Positions 41,945 to 60,664 of a DNA stretch of 64,000 nt are shown here, in pieces. Every line of letters begins with the position of its first letter. Position 1 is the stretch's first letter. Source of the stretch: Clostridia bacterium. Its GTDB lineage: Bacteria > Bacillota > Clostridia > Oscillospirales > CAG-272. The stretch is taken from contig JAGBTY010000053.1 in the NCBI GenBank assembly GCA_017631085.1, forward strand, positions 20,517 through 84,516, in the 5' to 3' direction. The notes under the pieces are model-generated. The model saw nothing but the letters and a program-made list of their open reading frames with translations. It did no database searches and was not told the origin of the DNA. A program made the position numbers and the translations under genes.

Positions 41945-44900
41945 ATGAAAAAAAGATGTATACTTTCAATAATTTCGTTATTGCTCACTTTGGTACTTCT
42001 TCTGGCGCAGGTAACGTTGCTCATATCCTGTATCAATGAAAATGAAAACACAGACTCTGGAAACGGTAATGACGCAACAGATGATAATCCAGGCAACAAT
42101 GATGCCTCTGACACCTCCGATAACTCCGATAACTCCGGTAACTCCGGAAATGAGAACGGAGAAAACAAACCAAATGATAACGAAAATGTTACACCTGGGG
42201 ACGAATCAGTTCTTAAAAAAACAACCCCTTTATATGCAGAAAATGTGTCTGACTTCGAAACCTACGATACACAGGGAAAACCCGTATTCAACGCAAACTT
42301 CTGCAAGGATTTCGAAAAAATAAACATTCCACCCGCAGAATACGCTCTCAAAAAGACGGTTGGCGATGCACCAAACTCAATAGTAAGCTTTATATGGAAT
42401 TCCAAATCTATAAGATATACGCTTAATACAGATAAAGCAGACAGTATTTCCGTAAACATCGGCAAATATGAAGAGGTATTCGGAACAGATGCGCTTGAGA
42501 ACGGAACTACTCTTACCCGCACCGTATCTCTCGATACTATCGGCGTATCCATTCAGGATATAGGTCAGCTTATCGAAACAAAGATAACAGTTAAGAGCGG
42601 AGACCTTGTATCTGAATCCGACGGATATATTCAAATATCCGACTATAAGATAAGCTTCAACACTACAGGTATGGACAAGTCCTATTTCACAAGAGTAAAC
42701 TCCACAGTTAAGAGCTCTGCTGCCGGAATTGATTTTGACAACGGCAAAATAAGACTTTTTGATACATATTCAAACGGGAAAGGTGTTTCTAATACAAAAT
42801 TATCTCTTCAGAAGAAGGATATAATAGACCTTCAAACCGAAAAAAGAAATTTTGTCATTGAGGCTGATCTGACTATCGACGCAATGCCCGTATATTCTCC
42901 TATAATCCTTACAAACAGCAGTGCCGCAGGACTTAACTTCAATGTTTGTCACAGCTCATCCTCTCCTTCTTTCCTCTTTACTCTTGTAAATACCAATAAC
43001 GGTATTGCTGTAATGGTAGTATCCGACGGAGCTTATTATCTTGCAAATACAGGCAAAAAGGTAGGAGATAACTTCCGCTTTGCAGCATCACTTTCAGCAG
43101 CGAACGGCTCTACCATCATTTCAATAGACGGGAAGGTAATTGCAACATTTACAGTATCCAATGCAGCGAGAAAAGACTTTGCTTCAAAGTCTGTAAATAT
43201 CGTATGGATGGCTGACGGAAACGAAAAAAAGAGTAATTCCGATAACATGGACATAACCATCAATTCCGTAATGGTATACTACGACCAGTCAAGGTCTGCT
43301 ACAAACAGTCTTACAACAAATGCTCTTTTTGGCGGAAAAGCGATCTCTCCTGTTGACACTTCACTTTCAATATACCGCGTTATAAATAGCATGAGCTTTG
43401 TAGAAACTGCATTTGGTGAAAGATATGGCCTTGATACTACTATGTATTGGAGCTCCTCGAACGAGAGCATAATCTCCAAGGATGGAACGCTTACTGCACC
43501 CAAAGGCAATGGAAAGATAGTGACCGTAACCTTTTATACTCTTGACGGAAACACCGTTCTCGGAGAAAGAGCATTTAATTTCTTTGTTCCGGGCGAAAAC
43601 GGTACCGTTTTAGTAAAAAACAGCGACACTAATCCGTTTACAGGCGTTGCAAAGGCAACCGATGCTATCTTCACTCTCAACACGCAAATGAACAGCATCG
43701 TATATGACATGGGCAACACTACAGTTATTAACAGAGCTACAATAAAGAGCTTACTTCCCATGGGACTTATAAGTAAAAACTTCGTGGGTCTCTATTACAG
43801 TAACGATAACGAAAATTATACACGTATAGACTCCTTCTCCATGCTCCAGACAGGCAACGACCTTTATTTCTACAACTTCAGCATAGAAGCTCGCTACCTT
43901 AAAGTGCACATGTCTTTCAGCGGTCTTGAAAATACAGGAACTATAGTTAACGCTACTGGAGATCTTCTTGTTGCAGAATACTCCAATGCTCCCCTTCTTT
44001 CAACAGGTACTTTTACAAAGACGGTAGACATACCCCTTAAAAACAATACAAATGAAACAGTTTACGATAAGGTATTCTCACTAACTCTCTCCGATATGGG
44101 TATTTCTGCTTACGACCTTAAACGTGATAAAAGCGATATTCGCTTTATGCACGACGGAGCATACCTTCCCCATTTCCTTGTCGGCTCTACCTTCTACGTA
44201 AGAGTTCTCGAAATGGCTGCAAATGAAAACATTACAGTCAAGGTCATTTACGGAAATAAGAATGCGGAATCAGTATCCGACGGTAACGAAACCTTTGAGA
44301 TCCAGTACGGTGAAAAATATGCCAAAATAAACAATGAGCGTGGTTGGTTCAATACGATCATTACAGCTCCCAACGGAGACGTACTCAGAATCGTCAGCGA
44401 AAGCGGTGGATTTGGAGTATATCGCTCAACCGACGGTGGTCTTACTTGGGGAAGTATGAAAAAAATTGCCAACTCTACTGTTGTTACAGAAAATACTCCC
44501 GGAATTCCCTATGGCAAACCCACCTGCGAGTGCGGAGGCTCTATCGTCGACAAGAAAAACGGAAAGATATTCTTTATCTGTCAGAGGATCGATAAAGAAA
44601 CCTCTCCAAAAATAGGTCTTAACTACATATTCCTTTCCACAGACAACGGTGAGACATGGACTCTTGTAGGCAATCCCACAGGTTCAAGAACCGAAACTAA
44701 TCCAAGCGTTGATAATATAGACGATAAAAGAGGTGCTCCCAATTACGCGCTTTCTTACTCGGACGGTCTTACACTCTCCTGCGCGGACGGAACAGGTCCT
44801 AATGTTGACTATGTATTCACTCTCGGTGAATGTGTAAATCAGGCAACAAGCGCCTTCAACACTACTGCATTCTATTCCAAAGATGGAGGTAAATCTTGGA

Positions 44901-45982
44901 TATTCAGTAATTCCACTATAAACTACGAAAATGGAAGCAGTAATTTCTTCGAGGGCGGATGCTCCGAGGACGCCCTTATTGAACAGGCGAATGGAACTCT
45001 GATATTCTACGCAAGATGTCAGATAGACGGCATTGACCATTTTGTAATGTCCAAATCCACAGACCACGGCGTAACCTGGAAAAAGCCCACTCTCACAAAC
45101 ATCTACACAACTAACACTCAACCGATTGTCGAAAGAATGGGAGACGGTAAACCCGTACTCCTCTGGGGAGGAAATAACGTTCTCGGTGGAAGAAGCTATA
45201 TGAGATTCCCCTTAAATCTTGCATATTCGAACGACGACGGAGAAACATTTGAAGGTATTCAGAACGCGTCCTTTGGAACTGTCATCGAAACATATGACAC
45301 ATTAGAAGGCAGAAGCCTTCATACCAACCCCGACCTTACCTTTGTAACCTATAAAGGAACCGAAATAACCTATATAGTCTCAACAAAGCATCAAATGTAT
45401 ATAATTGGTGTTGACGATTTCCTTTATAAACAAAAGGGCGCGTTCGACTCATTTGAATCGGGTGTTGCCGCAGAAGGCTGGTTTACAGTATCAGGCAGTG
45501 TAGCTTCGACTCCAATTGGCGCTACCGACGGATCTTTAGCTATGGCGATCGGTCAAAACACTACCGCTGTTCGTTCTATTACCTATATGGAAAAAGGAAC
45601 TGTCGAATTCGATTACTATATAGATAGCTTTGGATACGGACAGGTTATAGAGCTTCAAGCAGCATATAACAACAAGGAAGGCGCAACGCCCATCTCAAAG
45701 GTCCGCGCTCCGATTGCATTCCAGATAACCTCTAAAGGCGAGGTAAAATACATAAATGCCAGCGGCGAAGCAATATCTACCGGACTTTACCTTGATATTG
45801 GAAACAACACGATTTCCATAAGCTTTGATGGAAACGCAAGAAGCGCAACCATAACAGTAAATAGAGATACTGCAAACATAGGCTTCTCTGGCAATGATAT
45901 TTATGTATGTTACGTAACGATCTTTACCAAAGACTACGTTAAAGCTTCTCTTGACAGATTTATGGTTATCAAAGACAATTAA
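41945..45982 (+). CDS. Large sialidase-like Asp-box lipoprotein with DUF2341
   Basis: 1345 aa. A signal ends in lipobox LLISC (Cys29), then about 60 residues of Asn/Asp/Ser/Gly-rich low-complexity linker; the protein should be tethered outside the cell. The body repeats the layout of the 35701 protein: lectin-like beta-sandwich, F5/8-like region (about 555-665), DUF2341 (about 690-780, DKSDIRFMHDGAYLPHF), Asp-box propeller (YRSTDGGLTW, LSTDNGETW, YSKDGGKSW, KSTDHGVTW, YSNDDGETF) and a C-terminal lectin-like domain. EGGCSEDALIEQANGTLIF followed by YAR marks the possible catalytic Glu. AAGGAG lies before the ATG; a strong terminator follows. It likely binds or cleaves host or plant glycans. Sialidase activity is a hypothesis. 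Confidence 0.78.
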   Translation: MKKRCILSIISLLLTLVLLLAQVTLLISCINENENTDSGNGNDATDDNPGNNDASDTSDNSDNSGNSGNENGENKPNDNENVTPGDESVLKKTTPLYAENVSDFETYDTQGKPVFNANFCKDFEKINIPPAEYALKKTVGDAPNSIVSFIWNSKSIRYTLNTDKADSISVNIGKYEEVFGTDALENGTTLTRTVSLDTIGVSIQDIGQLIETKITVKSGDLVSESDGYIQISDYKISFNTTGMDKSYFTRVNSTVKSSAAGIDFDNGKIRLFDTYSNGKGVSNTKLSLQKKDIIDLQTEKRNFVIEADLTIDAMPVYSPIILTNSSAAGLNFNVCHSSSSPSFLFTLVNTNNGIAVMVVSDGAYYLANTGKKVGDNFRFAASLSAANGSTIISIDGKVIATFTVSNAARKDFASKSVNIVWMADGNEKKSNSDNMDITINSVMVYYDQSRSATNSLTTNALFGGKAISPVDTSLSIYRVINSMSFVETAFGERYGLDTTMYWSSSNESIISKDGTLTAPKGNGKIVTVTFYTLDGNTVLGERAFNFFVPGENGTVLVKNSDTNPFTGVAKATDAIFTLNTQMNSIVYDMGNTTVINRATIKSLLPMGLISKNFVGLYYSNDNENYTRIDSFSMLQTGNDLYFYNFSIEARYLKVHMSFSGLENTGTIVNATGDLLVAEYSNAPLLSTGTFTKTVDIPLKNNTNETVYDKVFSLTLSDMGISAYDLKRDKSDIRFMHDGAYLPHFLVGSTFYVRVLEMAANENITVKVIYGNKNAESVSDGNETFEIQYGEKYAKINNERGWFNTIITAPNGDVLRIVSESGGFGVYRSTDGGLTWGSMKKIANSTVVTENTPGIPYGKPTCECGGSIVDKKNGKIFFICQRIDKETSPKIGLNYIFLSTDNGETWTLVGNPTGSRTETNPSVDNIDDKRGAPNYALSYSDGLTLSCADGTGPNVDYVFTLGECVNQATSAFNTTAFYSKDGGKSWIFSNSTINYENGSSNFFEGGCSEDALIEQANGTLIFYARCQIDGIDHFVMSKSTDHGVTWKKPTLTNIYTTNTQPIVERMGDGKPVLLWGGNNVLGGRSYMRFPLNLAYSNDDGETFEGIQNASFGTVIETYDTLEGRSLHTNPDLTFVTYKGTEITYIVSTKHQMYIIGVDDFLYKQKGAFDSFESGVAAEGWFTVSGSVASTPIGATDGSLAMAIGQNTTAVRSITYMEKGTVEFDYYIDSFGYGQVIELQAAYNNKEGATPISKVRAPIAFQITSKGEVKYINASGEAISTGLYLDIGNNTISISFDGNARSATITVNRDTANIGFSGNDIYVCYVTIFTKDYVKASLDRFMVIKDN

Positions 45983-49646: not shown

Positions 49647-49675
49647 TTTACAAATCACTATTTTCGTGGTATACT
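49647..49675 (+). promoter_or_regulatory. Promoter of structured RNA copy 1
   Basis: TTTACA (49647-49652), 17-bp spacer ending CGTGG, TATACT (49670-49675). The same boxes and spacing precede RNA copy 2 at 60636-60664. Confidence 0.8.
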
Positions 49676-49680
49676 AAAAT

Positions 49681-49913
49681 TGCCAAACAAATTTCATAAG
49701 CAATCATAGGGATATTTTTCTCTTTTTTAGAAAAGGGTGAATTATACCTTTTTTCGTCGTGCAATAATCAACTATATGAATTTAGCAAAAACGCAAATTC
49801 CATCAAGTTGATTATGTATGGCGTAATATCCGTATGTTTGCTTGAAATTTGTTTGGCGACAATCGGAGTTTGCGTTTTTCGGTGCGTATGGCTTCGGTTG
49901 TACGCACTTTTTT
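49681..49913 (+). ncRNA. Structured leader RNA with terminator, copy 1
   Basis: Predicted transcript of about 233 nt starting right after the promoter. Its first bases (GCCAAACAAATTTCA, 49682-49696) pair perfectly with TGAAATTTGTTTGGC (49843-49857), and the stem extends via AGCAA/TTGCT around a 2-nt bulge. Inside are at least two hairpins, including AATCAACT (about 49766) with AGTTGATT (about 49806). After the closing stem comes GACAATCGG..., then the terminator hairpin GTGCGTA/TACGCAC (49882-49907) with TTTTTT. The ribosome site AAGGAGG of the next gene starts 7 nt after the T run. Copy 2 at 60457-60630 shares promoter, closing stem and terminator. It may be a riboswitch-like attenuator or a stand-alone small RNA. 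I do not recognise the class. Confidence 0.72.
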
Positions 49914-49934
49914 ATTTTAAAGGAGGTTATAAAC

Positions 49935-50300
49935 GTGAAGCTTTATAACAACATTGGAAAGAAGATCAAACTTTTGGCAATCGTTTCGGCTATTGTCTTT
50001 GCTCTAGCCGGGTATGTAACCGGATCCATCCTTATGATTTTAGATGACTTTGACAGTACCGGATGGATAGGATTGTTGATAATGATCTTGGTGCCGATAA
50101 TAGCATGGGTGTCATCTTTTGTACTTTACGGTTTCGGAGAGCTTGTTGAAAAAACCTGCAATATTAACAACATTCTTAGCGGTGGCAAAGCGGAGGACAG
50201 CGAGAGAATAAAAAGGATCAAAAGACTTCTCGCCAAAGATTTGATTACCGATGAGGAATATCAGACAATATTCGAAAGGATCAAAAAGGAGGAGGCATGA
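49935..50300 (+). CDS. Small membrane protein with C-terminal SHOCT domain
   Basis: About 121 aa from the GTG at 49935 (AAGGAGG 8 nt upstream); an upstream start would lie inside the structured RNA. It has two membrane segments (about residues 12-33 and 43-65), a short cytoplasmic loop and a C-terminal SHOCT module (ERIKRIKRLLAKDLITDEEY...), a short helical pair found at the ends of many bacterial membrane proteins and thought to aid oligomerisation. The function is unknown. It overlaps the next gene by 4 bp (ATGA), so the two are translated together. Confidence 0.78.
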   Translation: MKLYNNIGKKIKLLAIVSAIVFALAGYVTGSILMILDDFDSTGWIGLLIMILVPIIAWVSSFVLYGFGELVEKTCNINNILSGGKAEDSERIKRIKRLLAKDLITDEEYQTIFERIKKEEA

Positions 50301-51187: not shown

Positions 51188-51685
51188 TTATTCAGAGTAT
51201 AATTTGTCGTAGTGCCAGCGGAGAGGGTTTTCGAAAATGTATCTTACATGCTCCTCATAGTCCTGTTCGTTGCGAATAACATGATCGAAGAAAAGTTTTT
51301 GCCAAATCGACGCGCCAAGGCGTTTTGTAACGTATCCTTTCAATTGTTGTACTACCCGTGATATTGTAGGGGCGACCATTGGTCGTCCGCAATCATCTGC
51401 ATGAATCAATAATAACAAATGAACATGATCAGACATTATGACATATTGTTCTACCGATATGGACGGATATATATTTGATATATTATTTATTGCATCGTCT
51501 ACGATCTTTCCGTATGGAGATAATTCAACATCTTGAGGACGACCAATGGTCGCCCCTACACTGTTCCAAAAATAATTTTGTCTTTCTTTGGTGCATACCG
51601 TAATGAAATATGCTCCCGCAGTGCTATAATCATAACAATCCAAACGATTCTTTTTGCGTTGTGGGGTATCGTTATTAAAACACAT
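51188..51685 (-). CDS. REP-associated tyrosine transposase (RAYT), copy 1
   Basis: A 165-aa Y1-transposase-like protein (IS200-like superfamily). AGAYFITVCTKERQNYF (from residue 23) is the typical N-terminal strand, IMSDHVHLLL holds the metal-binding HUH pair (His87, His89), and the C-terminal block IWQKLFFDHVIRN...NPLRWHYDKLY matches RAYTs. Where copy 2 has Tyr (RGYQDH), this copy has Phe-Phe, while Tyr118 is present; which residue is the nucleophile is uncertain. Residues 42-50 and 100-107 are encoded by the two arms of an inverted REP-like repeat. It converges with the SHOCT operon. Confidence 0.85.
   Translation of the reverse strand: MCFNNDTPQRKKNRLDCYDYSTAGAYFITVCTKERQNYFWNSVGATIGRPQDVELSPYGKIVDDAINNISNIYPSISVEQYVIMSDHVHLLLLIHADDCGRPMVAPTISRVVQQLKGYVTKRLGASIWQKLFFDHVIRNEQDYEEHVRYIFENPLRWHYDKLYSE
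51365..51388 (+). repeat. REP-like repeat arm A inside RAYT 1
   Basis: 24 bp beginning TGTAGGGG and continuing with the palindrome CGACCATTGGTCG. It is an exact reverse complement of 51537-51560. GTAG followed by a palindrome is the usual layout of bacterial REP elements. Confidence 0.88.
51537..51560 (-). repeat. REP-like repeat arm B inside RAYT 1
   Basis: 24 bp, perfect inverted copy of 51365-51388, 148 bp away. Both arms are in frame and translated. Confidence 0.88.
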
Positions 51686-51763: not shown

Positions 51764-54700
51764 TCAGTTGTCCTTAATGGCAATAAAGCTATCAAGCGAG
51801 AATGTAGATTCTTTCTTGGGGAATACAGTGAAGTAGCTTATATAGCCGTCGTTGCCTGCAAATTCTACTTGAGCGGTATTTCCGTTGACCGTAAGGTAAG
51901 CCGTGCCGTTCTTTCCATTAAAGAGAATAGATACTTTGTTATTGCCCTTCTCAAGCTTCAAACCTGTCTTCTTGCCGCAGTCAAGAATATTTCCGTTTGT
52001 GTCAACATTAAAGTGCATTACCGTACTCTTGGATGCGACCGTCTCAGGCTTATCATTTTTCTTGTCGGGAGCATAGAACAGAATCTGAGGCTTTGACACC
52101 GACACGGATTTGTCCTCTCTGTCATTGAATGCCGACTGAAGCTCAATGCCGAGGCCTTCTCCAAATTCGGAAGCGTAAAGGTCGAAGCTTATCTCTCCCT
52201 CTCTGATGTAATGGAGAGGACGGGAAATAGCTGTGAAATTCTTAAGCAGAAGCGCACGACCTCCGTCGGTAGCCCCCATGTCCGTGGTAAGAAGTGTTCC
52301 CACCTGTGCCGCATACCAACCCTCTGCCTCTGCACCCGACTCAAAGGAGTCATATGCACCCTTGGTCTTTTCAATGTGAGCCTTTGCGTCTAATACGTAA
52401 AGCTGATGAACAGAGGATACGATATATGCCGCATCGACTCCACGGTACTTGCCAAAGGTAAGGTCGGGGTTCGTGTGGAGAGAAGCACCGTTATCTCTAT
52501 TGAGTGTCGCAACGTTTGTACGGAGAGATACGTCTACAATGTCCTCAAAGTTTTCTCCGTCGTCATAGGAGCGCGCGAGGTTAAGAGGATATCTGAGATA
52601 TGTATTTCCACCAAGGGAGTTATTTCCGCCCCACATAAATACGGGCTTCTCATCAAGCTTTTCAATAATAGGCTGAGTATTTGAGGTGTAGATGTTGGAG
52701 AAGGATTCGGAGGTTATATCGCTCCATGTAACACCATGGTCATAAGAGTAGGATTTTGCAAAGTGAACGCAGGTGTCGAGCTGACATCTCGCATAGAATA
52801 CGAGTGTTCCGTCCTCCTTTTCCCAAACAGTTTCCTCGGAGAGACCGCCCTCTGCAAAGTCGTTGTTTCCGTCGGTAAAGTTTGCGACCGTGTCGCTGAA
52901 TATCCATGTCTTACCGCCGTCCTTTGAATACATTCCGCCTGTGGAGAACGCCATAGTGTCAAGATTTACCATGATACCCGTGGTGAATACGTAGTCAACG
53001 TTAGGACCTTCTCCGTCCTCGTCCTTAAGCGTGATACCGTTGGAGTAGGAGATAGCGTATGTGGGAGCATTTTCGGGATTTCCCACAAAACTCCATGTAT
53101 ATCCGTTGTCCTCGGAAAGGAAGATATAGTATTTACAGTATCTTCCCTCAATGCCGTGAGTCCATTTTCCGTTTATGAATATGTTGAAGTCATAGGCAAA
53201 GAAGAATACCTTGTTGTTCTTCTTGTCAACGATAAAGCCGCCGCACTGAGTGATCATATCCGTATTTGGAATTATCTCGTAAGGAGACCAGGTAAGACCG
53301 CAGTTTGTGGAACGGTACATAGCAAGTTGTCTCTTGCCCTCGGGGGCAGGAATGTCAACTATGCGGAGCAGATCTCCGTTGGGCATGGTAGCCACAGAAT
53401 TGAACCAGCCTGTTTCGTTGTTGCGTCTGCCGTGCTTCATGCCGTACTGTATCTCGAGTGCCTCGTGACCATCGGAAACGCTGAGAGCATTCTCGTTCTT
53501 GTAAAGAACTGTAACGGTGAGCTTTTCGGAGGGAGCGAGCTCCAGCACTCTTACATAGAATTTTGTTCCGTCGAAGTAGTGGGGGAGATATGCGCCCTTG
53601 GCCAAAAATCTGATGTCTGCCTTGTCTGACTTGAGGTCGCACTCGCAAATACCCATATCCGCAAGGGTGAGTCTTACGATCTTGTCACAGACCGCCTTGT
53701 TCTCGGTATTTTCAACCGTAAATGTGGTCGTCTTCTCAAAGCTTCCTTCAGCAAGAAGGGGAGCATCGGAATGGAAAGCTTCGAGCATTTCCTCGGAGTA
53801 ACCTACTACCTTTCCAATATCACCGAGACCGTTTGTGGTGGTGTGGATCTTGACGTATCTTGTATTTGCGTTAAAGTTGTAAAAATATACAGTATCACCC
53901 TTTGTGAGAATAGAGAAATTCTTTACGTATTCGTAGCTTTCGTTGTCGATACTTGTAAAGAGGGCGAAGTTGTTCTTGTTGATGACTCCCACGCTTCCGA
54001 GAACGCTTCTGAGCACAACTCGGTTGACCTCGGTCTGCTTACCCATGTCGTAGATGACACTTGCGAAGTCGGACGAAAGGTCTATAAGTGCGGAGGAGGG
54101 CTCACCCTTACCGACAAAGGGGTCTTTGTCATCGAGTGAAACAAGGGTGTTTTGGGGGACGATATCTGTCTTTGATACTATAAAGCTTGCCTGTCTCTCA
54201 AAGGTGGGAGCGGTAATTGAGACCTCAACTCTACGGCTTCGATCTGTGGGAGCTACAAATTTTCCTTCCTTTGTAAGAAGCTCCACATTGCTCGAAATGA
54301 CCGAAAAAGGAACGGAGGTACCATATTTTTCATTTTCAATAGGCTTATTGATGATAAGGCTTGACGGAGCTTTATAGATAGTGCTACATATAGGCGCTCC
54401 TGTATCTTCCTCAAAGATATCCGTTGCATCAAATTTCTCAGACACCGAGAGAGTCTCGTCGGCATATATGTTGAGGTCACAGATATCCATATCCAGATTG
54501 TCTTCGTCACAAGCAGGAATGTATCTTGAACGCTTCCATGCGACAGAGAGTGAGTTAGGAGCGAGATGAGGTCTCTTCTGTTTTCCAATTCTCATAGAAA
54601 CAGCTTTTTCGCCATTTACATAAACAATAACATCACCTGATGCCCCCCATTTAAGTGTAAAGGAGGTTGGAACTCCAAAAGGAATGTTCAAAGGGGCAAT

Positions 54701-55456
54701 TTCTCTTGTACCGCCTACCACGAACAGATAAAGTCCGCCTTCATTTCTCTGGAAACCGAAGTATATAGAATCGTTTCCGTCCGCAGCGCAAAGAAAGAAT
54801 CCGAGTCCGTAGGAAGCATTGAAATTACGTACTGTCTTATAATCCATGGAAGGAAATGACTTCACGTTAAGGACCATGTCTACGCAAATATTCTTGTCTC
54901 TGTCTGCAAGAGCATCAATGCCGCAAAGACACATATCCACATTTGTATGAGGATAGTTCGGAGATGTCTTGTTGTGTCGGTCGTAAATGTTAAAGCCGTT
55001 TCCTATAACGCAAGCACCTAGGTCGGTCACAGCAGGATCCATTTCGGGATTTATTGCAGCGGTGACCTTTGTGCTATCAACAAGCTCCTTTATGCTTTCG
55101 GCTGTGGTAATAGAGATCATGTCATAATCGCAGAGCATGAGCTGTCCGCAGAACGTCTCTCCGTCCGCTGTGACAGAAATAGGAAATAGCTGGTTTCCGT
55201 CAAAAATTTCAAGTCCGTCGGCGGTGGTTATGTTGCACACAGTCTCGCCCTTTGCGCCAGATATCTCTTTTTCTACACCACCGAGAGCAATCTTATATGA
55301 TTTAGCCTTTTCGGATGTAAGGGTAAGCACTACAGCGTTTTTATTCCACGAAGCGTTTATGAGAACTGCATCTTCCTCGCCAAAATGCCGGGGATAACCG
55401 GTTTTTACGAGCTTTTCGTCGTATACCGCCCTCAGTACTATTTTATCGTTATTCAT
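51764..55456 (-). CDS. Large sialidase-like Asp-box protein with DUF2341, leaderless
   Basis: About 1230 aa, start ATG at 55456 (AAGGA 11 nt upstream, 50 nt after the predicted transcript start). No signal peptide. The domain order matches the proteins at 35701 and 41945: CBM9-like start (IVLRAVYDEKL...NASWNKNAVVLTL), lectin-like sandwich, F5/8-like region, DUF2341 (DKADIRFLAKGAYLPHYF), Asp-box propeller (YRSTNCGLTW, LSEDNGYTW, YSKDGGKTW, YSYDHGVTW, RSYDDGENF) and a C-terminal lectin-like domain with an insertion (FYAPDKKNDKPETV). It is visibly closest to the 35701 protein. SEETVWEKEDGTLVF followed by YAR may hold the catalytic Glu. A promoter with a palindrome in its spacer suggests tight control. 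Confidence 0.77.
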   Translation of the reverse strand: MNNDKIVLRAVYDEKLVKTGYPRHFGEEDAVLINASWNKNAVVLTLTSEKAKSYKIALGGVEKEISGAKGETVCNITTADGLEIFDGNQLFPISVTADGETFCGQLMLCDYDMISITTAESIKELVDSTKVTAAINPEMDPAVTDLGACVIGNGFNIYDRHNKTSPNYPHTNVDMCLCGIDALADRDKNICVDMVLNVKSFPSMDYKTVRNFNASYGLGFFLCAADGNDSIYFGFQRNEGGLYLFVVGGTREIAPLNIPFGVPTSFTLKWGASGDVIVYVNGEKAVSMRIGKQKRPHLAPNSLSVAWKRSRYIPACDEDNLDMDICDLNIYADETLSVSEKFDATDIFEEDTGAPICSTIYKAPSSLIINKPIENEKYGTSVPFSVISSNVELLTKEGKFVAPTDRSRRVEVSITAPTFERQASFIVSKTDIVPQNTLVSLDDKDPFVGKGEPSSALIDLSSDFASVIYDMGKQTEVNRVVLRSVLGSVGVINKNNFALFTSIDNESYEYVKNFSILTKGDTVYFYNFNANTRYVKIHTTTNGLGDIGKVVGYSEEMLEAFHSDAPLLAEGSFEKTTTFTVENTENKAVCDKIVRLTLADMGICECDLKSDKADIRFLAKGAYLPHYFDGTKFYVRVLELAPSEKLTVTVLYKNENALSVSDGHEALEIQYGMKHGRRNNETGWFNSVATMPNGDLLRIVDIPAPEGKRQLAMYRSTNCGLTWSPYEIIPNTDMITQCGGFIVDKKNNKVFFFAYDFNIFINGKWTHGIEGRYCKYYIFLSEDNGYTWSFVGNPENAPTYAISYSNGITLKDEDGEGPNVDYVFTTGIMVNLDTMAFSTGGMYSKDGGKTWIFSDTVANFTDGNNDFAEGGLSEETVWEKEDGTLVFYARCQLDTCVHFAKSYSYDHGVTWSDITSESFSNIYTSNTQPIIEKLDEKPVFMWGGNNSLGGNTYLRYPLNLARSYDDGENFEDIVDVSLRTNVATLNRDNGASLHTNPDLTFGKYRGVDAAYIVSSVHQLYVLDAKAHIEKTKGAYDSFESGAEAEGWYAAQVGTLLTTDMGATDGGRALLLKNFTAISRPLHYIREGEISFDLYASEFGEGLGIELQSAFNDREDKSVSVSKPQILFYAPDKKNDKPETVASKSTVMHFNVDTNGNILDCGKKTGLKLEKGNNKVSILFNGKNGTAYLTVNGNTAQVEFAGNDGYISYFTVFPKKESTFSLDSFIAIKDN

Positions 55457-55514
55457 AGGTTGTACCGTCCTTAATAAATTTTGCGACATAGAGAAATATG
55501 CCAACATCAAAACA

Positions 55515-59024: not shown

Positions 59025-59531
59025 ATGGATAAAATACCAAAAAGAAAGCCAACAAGAATGTATGGGGCGGATTATGATACCGTTGGCGCATATTTTATAA
59101 CAATTTGTACGCAAGACAGACGTTGTATTCTTTCGCGAATTGTAGGGGACGACGTCCTCGGCGTCCCGTCATACAGAACGGATTTATCGCCGTTAGGAAA
59201 AATCGCAGAGAAATACATAAATCAATTAAATATTTTTTACGACCATCTTTCGGTTGAAGAATATGTTATAATGCCAAACCATATTCACATTATGTTGATC
59301 GTGTCAGAGAACGGGACGCCGAGGACGTCGTCCCCTACAAAACAAACAAAATTTGTTCCTCATTTTGTTTCAACATTTAAAAGATTTTGCAACAAAGAAA
59401 TAGGGGAAAATATTTGGCAACGCGGATATCAAGACCACATTATCCGTAACCGTCAGGATTATGAAGAACACGTAAAATACATCCTTGAAAATCCTCTTCG
59501 TTGGCACTATGACAAATTATACTCTAAATAA
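59025..59531 (+). CDS. REP-associated tyrosine transposase (RAYT), copy 2
   Basis: A 168-aa Y1-transposase-like protein. VGAYFITICTQDRRCIL is the N-terminal strand, IMPNHIHIMLIV the HUH metal motif, and IWQRGYQDHIIRN...NPLRWHYDKLYS the C-terminal block, in which the Tyr is the likely nucleophile. The C-terminal 30 residues and the 3' hairpin are nearly identical to copy 1, while the middle differs. Residues 39-49 and 96-105 are encoded by an inverted 29-bp repeat pair located at the same positions as in copy 1 but with another sequence. The ribosome site is weak (AGATAAAAA). Confidence 0.86.
   Translation: MDKIPKRKPTRMYGADYDTVGAYFITICTQDRRCILSRIVGDDVLGVPSYRTDLSPLGKIAEKYINQLNIFYDHLSVEEYVIMPNHIHIMLIVSENGTPRTSSPTKQTKFVPHFVSTFKRFCNKEIGENIWQRGYQDHIIRNRQDYEEHVKYILENPLRWHYDKLYSK
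59141..59169 (+). repeat. REP-like repeat arm A inside RAYT 2
   Basis: 29 bp beginning TGTAGGGGACGACG and ending CGTCCCGT. GGGACG/CGTCCC form the hairpin. It is an exact inverted copy of 59311-59339. The head TGTAGGGG is shared with RAYT 1; the rest is different. Confidence 0.88.
59311..59339 (-). repeat. REP-like repeat arm B inside RAYT 2
   Basis: 29 bp, perfect inverted copy of 59141-59169, 141 bp away, in frame and translated. Confidence 0.88.
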
Positions 59532-59979: not shown

Positions 59980-60441
59980 TTACTCTAGACCAATTTGGGC
60001 TTTTGAAACAACTTTTCCACCTTGAAATGTCACATTAGCATTTGATCCTGCGTATCCATTACCTTCCCAACTATATATTTTGGTTGCGTATTCTGAGTAT
60101 CCAATATCAACCTCCGACATTAATTCTCCCTTACATCCAACGACTACAACCACTTCATCGTATGTCATTCCTGTTTTGATTTTGTTGAATTCAGACATAG
60201 ATATGGTTGTGTCTTTAAAAGCAGAACCTCCTGTTACACTGGAGCTACTGCTGTCCATTAAAGAAATTATTGCCCAAGTAAAACACGTAATGGATAAAAC
60301 CAAACAAACACATATAAAAATAATTCTTCTTGATGAAAATTTTCTTTTTACTTGTGTACCGCAATGTAAGCACATTGGAGCATTTTCTAAAATAAATTCT
60401 CCACACGTTGGACATTTTTCGAATTTTTCTTTTCCAAACAT
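59980..60441 (-). CDS. Zinc-ribbon, single-pass protein with BLIP/SmpA-like (DUF3862-like) domain
   Basis: About 153 aa from the ATG at 60441 (GGGGAGG 7 nt upstream); a longer start would sit in the terminator of the RNA. The N-terminal zinc ribbon KCPTCGEFI...CLHCGTQ is followed by a basic stretch, one membrane segment (about 36-57) and an extracytoplasmic domain with FNKIKTGMTYDEVVVVVG, the signature of small SmpA/OmlA- or DUF3862-like domains. Its role is unknown. It is the first gene behind RNA copy 2. Confidence 0.77.
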   Translation of the reverse strand: MFGKEKFEKCPTCGEFILENAPMCLHCGTQVKRKFSSRRIIFICVCLVLSITCFTWAIISLMDSSSSSVTGGSAFKDTTISMSEFNKIKTGMTYDEVVVVVGCKGELMSEVDIGYSEYATKIYSWEGNGYAGSNANVTFQGGKVVSKAQIGLE

Positions 60442-60456: not shown

Positions 60457-60630
60457 AATAAAAAGTGCGTACAACCGAAGCTATACGCACCGAAAAACAC
60501 ATAGCCCCAATTGTCGCCAAACAAAATTCATTTTCCCAAATAAGAATACGGAAAAATGGGCATATGTATTTTTACCTGAAAATAAAAACACGTATCCCCT
60601 TTGGGAAGAAATATTGAATTTTGTTTGGCA
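60457..60630 (-). ncRNA. Structured leader RNA with terminator, copy 2
   Basis: Predicted transcript of about 174 nt read leftwards. Its 5' end GCCAAACAAAATTCA (60629-60615) pairs perfectly with TGAATTTTGTTTGGC (60530-60516). Relative to copy 1 one base pair in this stem is switched from T-A to A-T, with the change present on both strands. An inner stem TTCCCAAA/TTTGGGAA and a further hairpin follow. After the closing stem GACAATTGG... leads to the terminator GTGCGTATAGC...GTACGCAC (60490-60465) with a T run. The ribosome site GGGGAGG comes directly after. Class unknown. Confidence 0.72.
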
Positions 60631-60635
60631 CCTTT

Positions 60636-60664
60636 AGTATACCACAAAACCATGTACTTGTAAA
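60636..60664 (-). promoter_or_regulatory. Promoter of structured RNA copy 2
   Basis: On the minus strand TTTACA (60664-60659), 17-bp spacer ending TGTGG, TATACT (60641-60636), matching the promoter of copy 1. Confidence 0.8.

Follow-up and report, generated by a model that had tools for sequence, protein, structure and literature searches.

An RNA with its own promoter, a long closing stem and a terminator was proposed by a first-pass annotation to precede a small gene in a Clostridia genome, within the 64 000-nt stretch of DNA analysed here (the window). The locus raises the question of what kind of RNA this is, and whether it works as a riboswitch by attenuation or as a small RNA in its own right with read-through, the two options left by that annotation. 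The promoter, the 15-bp closing stem (P1) and the terminator described for copy 1 at 49647-49937 are all present, the joining region GACAATCGG follows the closing stem, and a ribosome-binding site lies just past the T run. A second copy with all of the parts, claimed near 60457-60664, was likewise found and lies on the minus strand. The downstream gene of copy 1 had been described as encoding a SHOCT protein; an open reading frame is present there, but its SHOCT identity is weak, at 19.6 bits against a Pfam cut-off of 27.

Features of the two copies of the RNA in the window. Positions are those of the window.
Feature	Position	Strand	Remark
Copy 1, promoter-like sequence	49647..49675	+	Same spacing to the stem across the family
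Copy 1, -35	49647-49652	+	TTTACA
Copy 1, -10	49670-49675	+	TATACT, TG-extended
Copy 1, RNA	49682..49913	+	232 nt, long type; predicted start to end of T run
Copy 1, predicted +1	49682	+	G
Copy 1, P1 closing stem	49682..49696 / 49843..49857	+	15 bp; 5′ strand / 3′ strand
Copy 1, internal hairpin, then U6 tract	49735..49754	+	Long-type feature
Copy 1, P4 apical hairpin	49778..49801	+
Copy 1, loop strand	49785-49801	+	Potential pseudoknot partner of J
Copy 1, joining strand J	49858..49880	+	Complementary to apical loop strand and to terminator
Copy 1, terminator	49881-49907	+	Hairpin; T run to 49913
Copy 1, ribosome-binding site	from 49919	+	AAAGGAGG
Copy 1, ribosome-binding site and gene	49919..50297	+	121-aa protein; GTG start at 49935
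Copy 2, promoter-like sequence	60636..60664	-	-35 TTTACA from 60664; -10 TATACT
Copy 2, RNA	60459..60629	-	171 nt, short type; runs 60629-60459
Copy 2, P1	60615-60629 / 60516-60530	-
Copy 2, loop strand	60558-60578	-
Copy 2, J	60492-60515	-
Copy 2, terminator stem	60465-60491	-
Copy 2, downstream gene	59980..60441	-	153-aa protein; DUF3862 and weak zinc-ribbon matches

The two copies in the window are members of a large family and not a lone pair. Further copies were found by blastn over the window's own 1.59-Mb genome, out of which eight full copies were read, and a first covariance model, built from 29 long copies, returned the same eight from this genome together with one weak match (E 0.14). 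Decayed or partial copies were also seen there (L037 in the C20:124119 region, L038 in C44, and G000:C16:119-277), comprising one promoter with the 5′ part only, one 3′ fragment and one weak model match. Two models represent the family: R1 fits the long type, in which most copies measure about 190-235 nt, and R2 the short type, mostly of about 150-195 nt. The first-pass annotation had proposed a model-based search of clostridial genomes, and this uncovered the family in 104 of the 295 genomes sampled from the window's order, in 63 of 149 genera, using R2 at E 0.001 (99 of 295 using R1 at E 0.01), and in 89 of the 341 genomes of a class sample. In a phylum-wide sample of 348 genomes, which took in at least 11 order or class members that gave no match, the one match was the window's own genome.

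Ten genomes picked as apparently copy-rich gave 9 to 30 matches each. The richest were G558 and G592, with 30 and 29 matches, 25 being listed for each; the weak matches in these two counts may include some on the opposite strand. When the 25 listed G558 matches were fetched, all 25 matched R2 again. An exact-pattern scan of named genomes gave at least 120 matches, and the 80 loci listed are titled as Clostridia, groups within Clostridia, or Bacillota, many of them from the herbivore gut; Pumilibacter intestinalis, with a copy at L237, is one named species among them.

Three alignments were made from these copies: A1 contains 25 of 30 loci (without L048, L053, L059, L061 and L067) and four from the window's genome; A2, fitted to R1, contains 103 copies, 100 of them distinct, including one partial copy (L047:1-125) and window copy 2, poorly aligned in the interior; and A3 contains 48 of 57 short copies and window copy 2. 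From one set of 142 matches, 109 were entered, leaving out 26 on the opposite strand (at most 51 bits, over an entered copy), five that were truncated and two already in the set, and from a later batch of 86, 77 were used, leaving out three duplicates and six weak opposite-strand matches. Removal of near-duplicates took 204 copies to 199, and the 193 with a J length of 21-28 were used in one own-versus-swapped test.

A -35/-10 pair with no more than four mismatches in 12 positions is present in 267 of the 274 copies with enough upstream DNA (mean 2.0 mismatches, against 5.2 in mononucleotide shuffles), and 258 copies have the TG extension of the -10. The distance from the end of the -10 to the first base of P1 is 6 nt in 249 copies and 7 nt in 25. 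Therefore, the predicted start of the RNA is the first base of P1, in agreement with the proposal that its own promoter fires directly into the closing stem. Twelve tandem loci were read; in each the second unit has, as judged by eye, a promoter-like sequence of its own, and in L329 so does the third.

In A2, the pairs of P1, P4 and the terminator are formed in 98.6 % of cells, and pairing falls to 28-42 % when the partner strands are slid out of register. Changes on both sides were found for 21 of the 27 pairs, a number reached in none of 500 shuffles, which ignore relatedness. The fit of A2 leans towards P1, P4 and the terminator; the pseudoknot and antiterminator are absent from the model, hence there is no such lean for these.

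Two pairings go beyond the first-pass annotation, and both involve the joining strand J (GACAATCGGAGTTTGCGTTTTT) that follows the closing stem. J is complementary to the inner loop strand, giving a pseudoknot, and also to the terminator, giving an antiterminator, which in copy 1 pairs J with part of the terminator 5′ arm, the loop and part of the 3′ arm. The duplex energies of antiterminator and pseudoknot lie close together, at -20.1 and -20.7 kcal/mol in copy 1, and -20.6 and -18.3 kcal/mol in copy 2. For the long type, the 15 pairs of the pseudoknot are formed in 99.0 % of cells (98.5 % after shuffling), three of the 15 are changed on both sides, and own and swapped partners differ by 0.4 kcal/mol; this test is weak, with a small gain over shuffles, because the sequence hardly varies. 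An added pseudoknot pair (columns 163-291) is G-C in 42 of 100 rows and A-T in 34, with 17 gaps and seven other combinations. The nine antiterminator pairs, between J and the terminator loop and 3′ arm, are formed in 96.2 % of cells and in 90.9 % after shuffling, a test that here too ignores relatedness. Column pair 270-313 is A-U in 45 copies, U-A in 33, U-G in seven, unpaired in 13 and gapped in two. By duplex folding, the pairing of J with the terminator reaches further, into the terminator 5′ arm.

J was also exchanged between copies. A minimum-energy split of J from the terminator was dropped, the antiterminator having been mistaken for the terminator in many copies, and a split by a T-run rule kept 272 of 276 copies. 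Across these 272, the mean pairing energy of J with the terminator is -18.5 kcal/mol for its own J versus -15.0 for a swapped J (200 swaps), and with the interior -17.8 versus -15.5 kcal/mol, both comparisons being uncorrected for relatedness. In the 48 copies with a divergent J, in which the usual core is absent, none of 300 swaps reached the own mean for either pairing, again uncorrected for relatedness. In L325, L330 and L332, the J, the loop and the terminator loop are altered together. The claim of an unrecognised structured RNA thus stands, with covariation in P1, the terminator, the pseudoknot and the antiterminator.

Certain bases vary little. The AATA after P1 is near-invariant, as are a U, an A and a U tract in both types: the loop A tract (A167-A169) is the same in 102 of 102 copies, the J U tract (T287-T289) in 103 of 103, and a U tract lies 5′ of the loop A tract in 264 of 270. 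On their sequence, these tracts would suit a U.A-U triple helix, but are no proof of one. Separately, a P1 pair is tightly coupled to a J base outside the pseudoknot pairs (A2 columns 8, 258 and 270). Column 270 in J tracks column 8 in P1, with A at both in 48 of 49 rows and T with T or C in 45 of 48; a base triple or a subfamily signal is possible.

The family is placed before genes. Of 267 copies, 156 have a ribosome-binding site and open reading frame no more than 60 nt behind them, compared with 11 of 263 upstream on the opposite strand and 65 of 1370 random positions. By a looser rule, allowing up to 200 nt, 173 of 195 copies qualify, and an open reading frame of at least 40 codons with a ribosome-binding site within 150 nt is found for 220 of the 270 copies with enough flanking DNA, and is absent for 50. 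The downstream genes are diverse and no single pathway is indicated, 173 of them falling into 102 protein clusters. Pfam domains were tallied for 210 of the 220 downstream proteins, truncated at 330 aa, in two sets of 108 and 102. BspA-type LRR_5 was found in 12 and 18 proteins of the respective sets, MazE/AbrB-like domains in five and five, Zn_ribbon_3 in six and four, SHOCT in two and three, and AMP-binding enzymes in four and one. The kinds of gene behind the RNA include those for surface LRR proteins, lipoproteins, AbrB/MazE-like regulators, zinc ribbons and SHOCT proteins. In several genera the gene behind the RNA encodes a small AbrB/MazE-like protein bearing CxxC motifs; G558 has four such cases (L341, L349, L352 and L356), and others are at L363, L046, L060, L081, L144 and L154; L046 and L349 were scanned individually.

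Upstream of these genes, leader open reading frames (at least eight codons, with a ribosome-binding site) are not enriched, at 48 in 276 copies where shuffles predict 75.9. This speaks against an attenuation mechanism driven by the ribosome. Leader-peptide attenuation is ruled out as far as such counts tell.

With a promoter at a near-constant position, P1, a terminator, a conserved pairing that excludes the terminator, a pseudoknot that competes for the same strand, and a same-strand gene directly behind, the predicted RNA has the anatomy of a transcription attenuator. It is very probably a cis-acting attenuator of transcription fused to its own promoter, in which the pseudoknot would be the OFF state and the antiterminator the ON state. 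Transcription would begin at the first base of P1, and the RNA would fold into a long arm closed by P1, the apical part of which bears an A-rich strand. J, as it emerges, would pair with this strand to form the pseudoknot, leaving the terminator free to form, and transcription would stop. If the pseudoknot were prevented, J would pair with the terminator instead and the polymerase would enter the downstream gene. We infer that the choice between the two depends on a signal, which could be a metabolite, a second messenger, a protein or an RNA. When J and the terminator are folded alone, the antiterminator is preferred in 169 of 272 copies (at least eight J:terminator pairs), both window copies included, whereas in a crude estimate for the whole RNA that charges nothing for the pseudoknot, OFF is the more stable by a median of 10 kcal/mol; the two estimates thus disagree on the default state.

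As to the signal, there is about an even chance that the attenuator is, more narrowly, a true riboswitch, with a small ligand bound by the arm or pseudoknot, perhaps at a U.A-U triple helix, and a many-gene regulon like that of the c-di-GMP riboswitches. The numbers of copies in G558 and G592, the diversity of the surface and regulatory genes behind them, the near-invariant AATA and U, A, U tracts of both types and the lack of leader-peptide enrichment are consistent with this; however, the gene set gives no clue to a ligand, and the tracts may be invariant purely for the sake of folding or of protein binding. It is rather unlikely that control of the attenuator lies instead with a protein or small RNA that binds in trans to the A-rich apical strand or J. 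Occupancy of the loop strand would block the pseudoknot, and that strand (A166-A169, G172 and C191 of A2) is nearly invariant, but its pairing with J also accounts for this conservation.

Two further readings were weighed. A stand-alone small RNA acting in trans, with read-through into the next gene incidental, would be in keeping with the fixed predicted 5′ end, with a stable terminator (median -15.6 kcal/mol) and with the copies that have no downstream gene. These copies are a minority, though, a ribosome-binding site and open reading frame being about 14 times commoner behind the RNA than in the opposite-strand control, and the antiterminator, useless to such an RNA, covaries. As a description of the family this is improbable, and of the two original options it is the attenuator that is supported; for the copies without a gene (50 of 270), a stand-alone RNA is possible. 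It is less probable still that the family is a promoter cassette that moves or duplicates, persisting chiefly through its spread and with its structure a by-product. Tandem promoter-RNA units, decayed copies in the window's genome, very diverse downstream genes and Y1-transposase-like genes near both window copies are what such a cassette might leave, yet covariation across three strands requires selection on function, and no match was found for one exact pattern of the RNA in viral contigs or for copy 1 in a plasmid collection.

In a phage collection, three records match and carry the RNA (L364, L365 and L366), all of them unannotated 'UNVERIFIED' fecal scaffolds. By eye, the open reading frames of L365 look chromosomal. 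Those of L364 look methyltransferase-like, HNH-like and MATE-like; its RNA, at 338-532, precedes the methyltransferase-like and HNH-like frames (575-2829), which by eye resemble a restriction or defence pair. In the window itself, Y1 (IS200-like) transposase frames, just below the Pfam cut-off, lie at 51188-51685 (minus strand) and 59025-59531 (plus strand), about 1 kb from each copy of the RNA. REP-like GTAGGGGCGACCATTGGTCG repeats occur inside the first of these, and in the window's genome repeats built much alike stand ahead of copies C22 and C28 and of fragment L037. Two very large related frames, at 41945-45982 (plus strand) and 51764-55510 (minus strand), appear by eye to encode secreted sialidase-like (BNR-repeat) proteins.

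Returning to the attenuator, its most specific form is offered tentatively: the RNA might be a widespread class of orphan riboswitch in Clostridia that unites promoter, start and sensor and has J as its lever. A global signal, such as a second messenger or stress metabolite, might then act through a U.A-U triple-helix pseudoknot on about 25 to 30 genes where copies are most numerous, including many for surface proteins and small regulators. The RNA is spread through gut Clostridia, in which gene control is little studied, and it points to candidate regulons in bacteria that are for the most part uncultured. Its well-defined competing pairings ease both mutational tests and a search for a ligand.

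An Rfam scan had been suggested as the check on novelty. No Rfam 15 family reached the gathering cut-off anywhere in the window, and on 20 other family loci two tRNAs did so and nothing else. Matches on both window copies were sub-threshold and were rejected, the best being RsaD (30.8 bits against 50), which runs antisense to part of copy 2 and its promoter. In a literature search limited largely to titles and some abstracts, no entry named the RNA. PMC8040213 has 3161 candidates, and the RNA could be among them.

The RNA would be classed as a transcription attenuator and as a candidate riboswitch, and it shares features with several known systems. We know of no class with a start fixed at the closing stem, one strand used twice and such a copy number, and to our knowledge few cis-regulatory RNA classes reach 25 to 30 copies per genome. 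The merging of sensing and termination parts recalls the HMP-PP (thiS motif) riboswitch, in which the aptamer is reportedly embedded in the terminator, although the new RNA has no Rfam match. In T-box and leader-peptide attenuators, as here, terminator and antiterminator are mutually exclusive; the new RNA differs in giving no Rfam T-box match, in its leader open reading frames not being enriched and in that the partners found for its pairings lie within the leader. Competition between a pseudoknot and structures around the terminator is found in ZTP (pfl) and other terminator-acting pseudoknot riboswitches, again with no Rfam match to the new RNA, and a long arm closed by P1 and fused to a promoter is not known to us from that type. 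The c-di-GMP-I and -II riboswitches also occur in many copies per genome before diverse genes, often those for surface proteins, can act by termination and, in class II, have a pseudoknot. They have no Rfam match in the loci scanned, and in the new RNA the predicted start falls on the closing stem itself, with a single strand serving both the pseudoknot and the antiterminator.
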